Shown here: one piece after another, positions 241 through 1,485 of the stretch
Layout of the letters: every line of letters starts with the position of its first letter
Numbering within the stretch: position 1 is the first letter of the stretch
Assembly: GCA_028692515.1 (NCBI GenBank)
Contig: JAQUXG010000119.1
Location: 1-5,699, forward strand
Source of the DNA: Kiritimatiellales bacterium
GTDB lineage: Bacteria > Verrucomicrobiota > Kiritimatiellia > Kiritimatiellales > Tichowtungiaceae
Length of the DNA: 5,699 nucleotides
Direction of reading: 5' to 3'
Translations under genes and position numbers: made by a program
Notes under the pieces: model-generated
What the model saw: the letters and a program-made list of their open reading frames with translations, nothing else
The model's database searches: none
Told to the model about the DNA's origin: nothing

Positions 241-1485
241 ATGAAAATTGCAGATGTGATTATAGTCGGCGGCGGGGCGGCGGGGATGTTCGCCGCTGCT
301 GTGCTGGCTGAAGAGGCGCCGGAACTGAAAGTTCTGGTTCTCGAAAAGGGAGCAAAGCCGCTGGCAAAAGTCCGCGTTTCCGGCGGCGGCCGCTGTAACC
401 TCACGCATCAATGTGCCGACATCCGCGACTTTGTGAAAAACTATCCGCGCGGCGGGCGCGAGCTGATCGGCCCGTTTAACCGATTCGGTCCGGCGGAAAC
501 CATCGCGTGGTTTGAGCGTCACGGCGTTCCGCTGGTGACACTCGCTGACGGATGTCTCTTCCCGAAGTCCGACACGTCGGAAGACGTCATCAATGCGTTG
601 CTCAAAACAACGGCAGAAATCCGAACGAATTCAGAAGTTTCCAAAGTCTGGAAATTCGATGGTGGGTTCAACGTCAAATTGACGAGCGGCGAACAGCTCA
701 GTTGTAAGAAGGTTTTGGTGGCGACGGGCGGCGGTGCATTTATCGAAGGGCTGGGCCATACGATCGAACCCTGCGTGCCGTCGCTCTTTACGTTTAACAC
801 CTCGGACAAAGAGTTCACTGCGCTGGCCGGCATTGTTGTTGAACCGGTTCGTGTCAGTGCGCCGGGTTTAAAGGCGGACGGTGCACTGCTGATTACGCAC
901 AGCGGTGTGAGCGGTCCGGCGGTATTACGGCTTTCGTCGTTCGGTGCGCGAACGCTGGCGGAGATGAATTACCATTTTGAGATGAAAATCAACTGGCTTC
1001 CGGATCAAAGCGAAGAAGAGATTTTCCAAACCCTGGAAAAACAACGCACCGCTTCACCGCGCAAGCAGGTCGGAACGTGGTCGCCGGTTGGCCTTTCTTC
1101 CAGACTTTGGAAACTTCTAGTGAATCGCGCGGACGTTGAAGAGACGCGTGAGTGGGGCGGATGCTCCTCAAAAGCGTTGCGGCAGATCGCGGCGCAGGTG
1201 AGCGGGTTCATTCTTCCAATCATTGGGAAAAACAAACACCGCGAGGAGTTTGTCACTTGCGGCGGAGTCCGCCTGAAGGAAGTGAATTTCCACCCGACCA
1301 AAGGGAGAGAGGCCGCGCGAGTGCGCGGCAATGACCGAAGGGAATGGCAAACCTTGGAAAGCCGTTTGGTTCCGGGGCTCTATTTTGCGGGCGAGGTGCT
1401 GGATATCGACGCGCTCACCGGCGGCTTTAATCTGCAGGCCGCCTGGACGACCGGATATCTGGCCGCGCAATCACTGCGAGGCTGA
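241..1485 (+). CDS. HI0933/YhiN/BaiN-family FAD-dependent oxidoreductase
   Basis: A 414-residue cytosolic flavoprotein, near the usual family length. Seen in the sequence: an N-terminal Rossmann FAD-binding motif (VGGGAAG, residues 9-15), an acidic residue ending the second strand (E35), the family signature KVRVSGGGRCNLTH (43-56), THSGVSGPAVLRLS in the middle, TCGGVRLKEVN, and the C-terminal FAD-contact block GLYFAGEVLDIDALTGGFNLQ (from residue 379). The family has FAD and a predicted NAD(P)H partner. Its physiological reaction is mostly unknown; one clostridial member, BaiN, has been assigned to bile-acid dehydroxylation, and that should not be transferred here. ATG 241 sits directly before the FAD motif, which fixes the start. 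Compared with the family pattern EVNPKTMESKLVPGLYF, this protein has about 19 extra residues (351-369) rich in Arg and Gly. Its DNA also carries several TTTCCA/TGGAAA palindromes. The 3' end overlaps the convergent lipoprotein gene by 15 bp. Family assignment is firm; substrate is unknown. Confidence 0.95.
   Translation: MKIADVIIVGGGAAGMFAAAVLAEEAPELKVLVLEKGAKPLAKVRVSGGGRCNLTHQCADIRDFVKNYPRGGRELIGPFNRFGPAETIAWFERHGVPLVTLADGCLFPKSDTSEDVINALLKTTAEIRTNSEVSKVWKFDGGFNVKLTSGEQLSCKKVLVATGGGAFIEGLGHTIEPCVPSLFTFNTSDKEFTALAGIVVEPVRVSAPGLKADGALLITHSGVSGPAVLRLSSFGARTLAEMNYHFEMKINWLPDQSEEEIFQTLEKQRTASPRKQVGTWSPVGLSSRLWKLLVNRADVEETREWGGCSSKALRQIAAQVSGFILPIIGKNKHREEFVTCGGVRLKEVNFHPTKGREAARVRGNDRREWQTLESRLVPGLYFAGEVLDIDALTGGFNLQAAWTTGYLAAQSLRG
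633..654. repeat. TTTCCA/TGGAAA palindrome, copy 1 (in flavoprotein gene)
   Basis: TTTCCA (638-643), five bases AAGTC, then TGGAAA (649-654): perfect 6-bp arms. It is read through as S-K-V-W-K (residues 134-138). Bases 633-653 are the exact reverse complement of 1098-1118. Confidence 0.7.
1022..1040. repeat. TTTCCA/TGGAAA palindrome, copy 2 (in flavoprotein gene)
   Basis: TTTTCCA (1022-1028), loop AACCC, TGGAAAA (1034-1040): perfect 7-bp arms. It is read in a different codon phase from copy 1, as F-Q-T-L-E-K (residues 262-267). It differs from the 17-bp core of copy 1 at two central bases. Confidence 0.7.
1098..1118. repeat. TTTCCA/TGGAAA palindrome, copy 3 (inverted partner of copy 1)
   Basis: TTCCA (1098-1102), GACTT, TGGAA (1108-1112) lies inside a 21-bp block that is the perfect reverse complement of 633-653. 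It is read as S-R-L-W-K (residues 287-291). Confidence 0.7.
1213..1230. repeat. TTTCCA/TGGAAA palindrome, copy 4 (degenerate)
   Basis: CTTCCAATCATTGGGAAA resembles the other copies, with CCAA/TTGG arms around TCA and one extra G in the right arm. It is read in the third codon phase as L-P-I-I-G-K (residues 325-330). Confidence 0.5.
1287..1360. repeat. Probable palindromic insertion inside the flavoprotein gene
   Basis: Between EVN and QTLESRLVPGL the protein has about 19 residues (351-369: HPTKGREAARVRGNDRREW) not expected from the family pattern EVNPKTMESKLVPGL. The DNA is bounded by TTTCCA (1287-1292) and TTGGAAA (1354-1360), the same half-sites as in the nearby palindromes. Its centre is a perfect hairpin: GCCGCGC (1312-1318), loop GAGT, GCGCGGC (1323-1329). 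The right boundary may be ancestral, since ACC-TTG-GAA corresponds to the family's T-M-E. The frame is preserved. An insertion is inferred from remembered family patterns, not from an alignment. Confidence 0.5.

Follow-up and report, generated by a model that had tools for sequence, protein, structure and literature searches.

A short palindrome, TTCCA-N5-TGGAA, occurs in 754 exact copies, about one site per 2.4 kb, in the 1,814,136-base draft genome containing the window (the whole stretch of 5,699 nucleotides analysed here), whereas the reversed-pattern control has 0 copies. The count, which the earlier note had proposed to compare with a genome background, lies far above it, and the suggestion of a dispersed family that tolerates coding sequence is borne out by these copies and by sampled coding sites in three phases. 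Closely neighbouring sites are separated by whole turns of the DNA helix. From these patterns we consider it fairly probable that the palindromes are double-stranded binding sites of a putative dimeric, cooperative, chromosome-wide DNA-binding protein. A dispersed repeat, a protein binding site and an uptake-like sequence had all been offered as options; the N5 spacing, the whole-turn arrays and the constraint on the arms only favour the second.

The flavoprotein gene and other coding sites

The window carries a flavoprotein gene with five palindromes, the last of them interrupted by an inserted element:

241..1485, plus strand: flavoprotein host gene, HI0933-like / aminoacetone-oxidase-family FAD-binding (Pfam PF03486, E 1.7e-62; NCBIfam TIGR00275, E 3.2e-113, above cut-off)
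638..654, no strand: palindrome 1, TTTCCAAAGTCTGGAAA, exact; split by the 57-nt element in relative G466
1022..1040, no strand: palindrome 2, TTTTCCAAACCCTGGAAAA, exact; 17-nt match to TTTCCA-N5-TGGAAA at 1023-1039
1097..1113, no strand: palindrome 3, CTTCCAGACTTTGGAAA; 1 mismatch to TTTCCA-N5-TGGAAA, exact for TTCCA-N5-TGGAA
1213..1230, no strand: palindrome 4, TTCCAATCATTGGGA; one arm mismatch to TTCCA-N5-TGGAA, 2 mismatches to TTTCCA-N5-TGGAAA (1213-1229)
1287..1292, no strand: palindrome 5, left part, TTTCCA; intact as TTTCCAAACCTTGGAAA at the same place in relative G480
1293..1349, plus strand: in-frame insertion of 57 nt, belonging to a family of repeats with three hairpins (codon alignment; repeat family; covarying hairpins)
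1350..1360, no strand: palindrome 5, right part, AACCTTGGAAA, cut off from the left part by the 57-nt insertion

The four palindromes listed in the earlier note were found at their places, two of them exact TTTCCA-N5-TGGAAA and the others with 1 and 2 mismatches; the fifth copy, split by the insertion in the same gene, had been overlooked. The arms of palindromes 1-4 start at window positions 639, 1024, 1098 and 1214, i.e. at codon offsets 2, 0, 2 and 1 in 241-1485, so that all three codon phases are indeed used, and the reported readings S-K-V-W-K, F-Q-T-L-E-K, S-R-L-W-K and L-P-I-I-G-K are correct. Palindromes 2 and 3 are 74 bp (7 turns) apart and palindromes 3 and 4 are 116 bp (11 turns) apart. 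Among relatives, the place of palindrome 2 holds an exact TTCCA-N5-TGGAA in G032, G081, G003, G480 and G466 and none in G029 and G130, and that of palindrome 4 an exact site in G032, G081, G003 and G480. In the G480 flavoprotein the sites are separated by 74, 116 and 74 bp, each a whole number of turns, with one more site further upstream. Taken by itself, the window shows a moderate excess of palindromes, with 9 matches at three or fewer mismatches against 3.08 expected, a number reached by 2 of 200 shuffles.

Two further observations concern the window. Palindromes 1 and 3 are joined by a 21-nt perfect inverted repeat (633-653 / 1098-1118), which exceeds the palindrome length. On the minus strand, 1958-2344 and 2393-2965 are same-frame open reading frames split by one TAG (2393-2395), the codons between them being open; they look like one gene in which the stop is either a nonsense codon or a sequencing mistake. 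A search of the window against Rfam gave nothing except one match far under the gathering score.

Coding sites were also found in mnmE, coaE, ribD, dusB (scoring just under the cut-off), cysS and ligA (a fragment, below the cut-off), as well as in a gene for what we take to be a Tex-like protein. Among 14 members of the genus, mnmE has five shared places where the palindrome is present in some genomes and lacking in others without indels. Over mnmE and the flavoprotein gene together, nine sites are gained or lost by substitution alone, with no indel at the empty sites, the 57-nt element aside, which is what the alignment to homologues proposed in the earlier note was meant to reveal. Genome G433 carries arrays elsewhere but has no site in mnmE, and individual coding sites are therefore dispensable.

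On closer comparison, the mnmE arms stay while the cores vary in both bases and amino acids (SKVWK, SNVWK, SSVWK, SMVWK; FQGLE, FQSLE, FQCLE). Identity at third codon positions is 0.742 in the arms, 0.411 in the cores and 0.516 in the gene as a whole, and 0 of 2,000 random draws were as high as the arms. The corresponding values for the flavoprotein are 0.703, 0.638 and 0.546 (p 0.010), for a comparison that omits the partial orthologue G437 and uses four sites chosen because the window has them. In mnmE clearly, and in the window's flavoprotein to a modest degree, the arms are thus more conserved than synonymous drift would leave them. The claim that the DNA rather than the protein is conserved holds insofar as the arms are kept around a core that changes its amino acids; however, most of the residues encoded there are conserved across the genus as well. 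A protein motif was considered as the source of the pattern and ruled out, since three phases give three different peptides and the cores swap amino acids while the arms stay.

Distribution of the family and anatomy of one site

Of 387 genomes scanned from the phylum, an even draw from a larger group, 37 had at least 100 copies, all of them from the window's class, where counts range from 0 to 2,297 per genome; outside the class the maximum was 30. The palindrome-bearing class is probably Kiritimatiellia. Among the best 80 of 117 public contigs with the pattern, most are labelled Kiritimatiellae, Kiritimatiellales, Pontiellaceae, Lentisphaerae or Verrucomicrobia, the remaining labels being a few uncultured, one Spartobacteria and one Firmicutes bin. 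Of 288 genomes of the class, 94 contain site pairs at a distance of 30-33 bp, and 0 contain such pairs of the reversed pattern. A literature search, largely of open-access papers, turned up no prior account of the family among the results viewed.

Some observations stand apart from this distribution. The top pair count belongs to G403 (family f7), whose 6.7 Mb contain 1,349 matches to the pattern of pairs 30-33 bp apart. Some contigs filed as viral (18 stretches, L329-L346) carry paired sites. Unlike the other scanned genomes, G061, from a different class, has 55 copies of the reversed control AAGGT-N5-ACCTT and 0 of the forward pattern, and this is perhaps a separate site family.

The structure of a single site was studied in a sample made up of the window and 60 of the 288 contigs of its genome (321,536 bp, picked by contig number and not at random). 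This sample contains 131 exact sites with the N5 spacing against a simulated mean of 0.2, while spacings of 0-4 and 6-15 between the arms give 0-2 copies each. Chance and codon bias are ruled out by this enrichment at N5 only, together with the reversed control of 0. The centre base of the core is G or C in 128 of the 131 sites, the flanks lean to TTT and AAA, and the centres of the half-sites are 10 bp apart, about one helical turn. The inner base differs by lineage, being A/T in most, C/G in G233, T/A in G267 and mixed in others.

Perfect arms with AT-rich extensions might be expected of RNA or cruciform hairpins, for example terminators. Compensated double changes in the arms, however, number 8 against about 10 simulated, while single-change arm variants number 58 against about 19. 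At flank positions 1-6 the paired counts are 79, 59, 44, 41, 31 and 32, where independence would give 72, 55, 42, 36, 36 and 33, so that apart from slight excesses pairing is no higher than independence predicts. The uncompensated arm changes speak against hairpins and fit two protein half-sites; the 57-nt element, by contrast, covaries strongly. As whole-turn phasing would also have no reason in RNA, we regard hairpins as very improbable.

Array spacing, genomic location and the proposed protein

In the 321-kb sample, which was chosen without regard to site spacing, all 36 neighbour gaps below 135 bp (22, 30-32, 42, 53, 73, 74, 85, 95 and 116 bp) deviate by at most 2 bp from a multiple of 10.5 bp. 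They comprise 27/27 gaps of 15-34 bp and 9/9 of 35-134 bp, each result being reached in 0 of 20,000 uniform-gap simulations. With orthologue loci removed, the pooled loci have 40 gaps of 35-134 bp, of which 29 are in register (0/20,000 simulations as high) and 11 are more than 2 bp off a whole turn. The pooled gaps of 15-34 bp are in register in 402 of 402 cases, which carry little weight since most of them stem from loci retrieved by the 30-33 bp pattern and are thus not independent. Pooled gaps of 61-66 and 93-96 bp may be multiples of 31-32 bp with the middle site lost; phasing persists when they are dropped, in a set that still contains orthologues. Between 135 and 400 bp phasing is absent (2,081/20,000 and 7,943/20,000 simulations as high), and such fading past about one DNA persistence length would fit contacts between bound dimers.

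Spacing has its own lineage dialects. Spacings of 31 and 22 bp are found in the window's family and of 31-32 bp in f4 and f7, while f10 arrays run 22-31-31-31-31-22 (30 or 32 in places) or are of the 22-31-31-31-22 type or shorter. A distinct dialect is seen in G294 (f33), where the array period is exactly 21 bp and the inner base is mixed T/C.

With respect to genes, 71 of the 131 sampled sites are coding, with phases 32/25/14, and density is 0.25 per kb in coding sequence against 1.5-2.4 per kb in spacers. Densities are similar in divergent, tandem and convergent spacers, with no steady preference for any type. The samples from f4, f7, f10 and f22 have mostly intergenic sites (coding 0.00-0.16 per kb). 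Gene calls come from a simple caller, and the density row of the G436 sample, of which only 36% was called coding, is unreliable. At the 117 public loci, 127 of 149 arrays are intergenic and 22 lie within called genes.

The main rival explanation is a DNA uptake signal, by which the palindrome would mark the bacterium's own DNA for natural transformation and be spread by biased uptake. The density of about one site per 2.4 kb would suit it, as would the three coding phases, the presence in core genes (mnmE, coaE, ribD, dusB, cysS, ligA), the clade-specific inner-base versions and the patchy counts among close relatives. As far as described in PMC3630211, the DUS of Neisseriaceae likewise has thousands of copies, lineage dialects, intragenic copies and, in one species, Simonsiella muelleri, dyad-symmetric overlapping pairs; the palindromes share its high copy number, dialects, intragenic copies and dyad symmetry. 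However, one-mismatch copies of DUS outnumber exact ones in all Neisseriaceae of that paper, whereas here exact sites outnumber arm variants with one mismatch (131 vs 58, the latter expected about 19 times by chance), i.e. the arms are exact and not drifting. The strong intergenic preference in several families also differs from DUS, and phased arrays at 21, 22 and 31-32 bp would bring an uptake system no clear advantage. The comEC family (PF03772) was found in 23 of 23 genomes tested, motif-rich and motif-poor alike, and does not discriminate between them. On balance we think an uptake signal unlikely, though it deserves more weight than the other rivals.

A dimer-type palindrome, with arrays close to gene starts at many loci, might instead suggest operators of a classical transcription factor acting on a defined gene set. 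Promoter-bearing spacers are not preferred over convergent ones, however, and over half of the sampled sites are coding. The genes adjoining arrays are functionally incoherent: the 68 proteins scanned out of 82 (the 14 omitted being mostly short pieces or very long, and 54 control genes being unscanned) gave 128 Pfam families, the commonest in 3, with no common function found. In genomes with one or few arrays no common neighbour gene was found either, and several single pairs resemble chance or sit in repeats. Operators therefore seem a rather remote explanation.

An abundant cooperative dimeric DNA-binding protein would explain the half-site geometry, the whole-turn arrays, the arm-only constraint and the disregard of gene context together. 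Three features expected of an architectural protein's sites were found: enrichment, helical register and no confinement to promoters or to one gene set. Computation yielded no candidate for the protein itself. From the arrangement of the sites we infer protein binding, contact between dimers in array building and selection on genic sites. The putative dimer would occupy hundreds to thousands of chromosomal positions, its half-sites TTCCA and TGGAA lying one turn from each other on the same side of the helix. Contacts between bound dimers along one DNA face would assemble them into arrays with steps of 22 and 31-32 bp (21 bp in one lineage), much as a nucleoid-associated protein or a chromosome organiser may do, and selection for binding would preserve the sites inside genes. 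Against the predicted protein stands the span from 7 to 2,297 copies within family f2 alone, a fast turnover for a housekeeping protein.

Noc-binding sites, matS and parS are short palindromes recognised by a dimer and present in many copies in and outside genes. The palindromes described here are likewise short, multi-copy and of dimer type, and lie inside and outside genes; they differ in sequence and half-site spacing, in being far more numerous and in forming phased whole-turn arrays. A weak hint of further likeness comes from the complete chromosome of G081, where the 87 mapped of 951 sites fall 26/27/25/9 into quarters from the presumed origin to the presumed terminus, the origin being placed by twenty 5-kb GC-skew samples. 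The statistics are borderline (Rayleigh p 0.07; 53/87 in the origin half, p 0.053).

Bacterial chromosome-organising proteins are mostly non-specific or have few binding sites. If the proposed reading is true, a palindrome that recurs at intervals of 2 to 3 kb, keeps helical register, stays exact inside housekeeping genes and differs in dialect and spacing among lineages would record such a protein with unusual clarity and allow a direct search for it. Some short peptides encoded by these bacteria may then mirror the DNA and not protein function, a point to heed when their proteins are aligned or used for predictions. A bolder picture, which we put forward tentatively as possible rather than likely, is that in many members of the class the chromosome is coated by a lattice of sequence-specific protein reading a helical-turn code, the half-sites recurring every 10.5 bp along one face and both spacings and inner-base dialects varying by lineage. 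Its constraint would write F-Q-x-L-E-K, F-P-x-x-G-K and S-K-x-W-K into housekeeping proteins and offer landing pads to the 57-nt element. Such a lattice would parallel histone-like packaging, but in a site-specific form.

The 57-nt element and mobile repeats

None of the 7 same-genus orthologues compared at this place, all of them full or nearly full, has the insertion at 1293-1349. Matches to the element, counting weak ones, occur in all 14 genus genomes; among 146 genomes of the class, 13 have matches that reach E 0.001 (f1, f2, f28 and f87). The 31 collected copies, 57-60 nt long, include window 1293-1349, L158, L381 and L071. Three hairpins are common to the aligned copies of 57 nt, 26 of the 31 collected, with strong covariation (51 doubly changed cells vs 15.0 shuffled).

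Among the 31 copies, 15 are inserted in an exact palindrome and 23 in one at two or fewer mismatches, a count biased upwards in that most copies were retrieved with a palindrome-flanked query. By comparison, 130 of 5,000 random positions lie within a palindrome at two or fewer mismatches, the control being scored more strictly since 2 bases of junction play were allowed for the copies only. The fairest set is the 321-kb sample, in which 5/5 element copies sit in a palindrome with two or fewer mismatches. The element is also in frame in the G466 flavoprotein (reverse orientation) and in G466 mnmE, and likewise in a glycosyltransferase-like ORF of L071. It leaves no target duplication beyond one ambiguous A and resembles a single-strand (HUH-type) insertion. 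Since f28 has the element almost without palindromes, element and palindromes are separate, and we predict that the former is a small mobile element using the latter as landing places. The palindromic elements of Rickettsia, as far as covered by PMC10969869, are in frame within unrelated genes and about 150 bp long; the present element is likewise in frame in unrelated genes (flavoprotein, mnmE, glycosyltransferase-like ORF), but is 57-60 nt long and targets a defined palindrome.

The palindromes themselves might be a mobile repeat of REP or MITE type, each site being an insertion copied into a new place. High copy number, intergenic preference and arrays, for which REP clusters are a known analogue, would agree with this, and Y1-type transposases are present in 14/14 genus genomes. 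In the accounts of PMC8266576 and PMC1525189, as far as they bear on this, REP and BIME palindromes, which have their TnpA(REP), are clustered between genes and REPs are landing sites of insertion sequences, which recalls both the intergenic clusters and the use of the palindromes by the 57-nt element. The palindromes differ from REP/BIME in being gained by substitution, in lacking hairpin covariation, in their helical phasing and, in the window's genus, in being often coding. In the two genes compared, sites come and go without indels, the 57-nt element aside; array spacers differ from unit to unit in the arrays examined and arm changes are uncompensated. A copied unit would not be expected to hold whole-turn spacing at 42, 53, 74, 95 and 116 bp. 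We therefore hold a mobile origin of the palindromes to be improbable, somewhat more so than an uptake signal, and retain the binding-site reading. Finally, a 64-nt relative of the hairpin element was observed in L330, a contig filed as viral.
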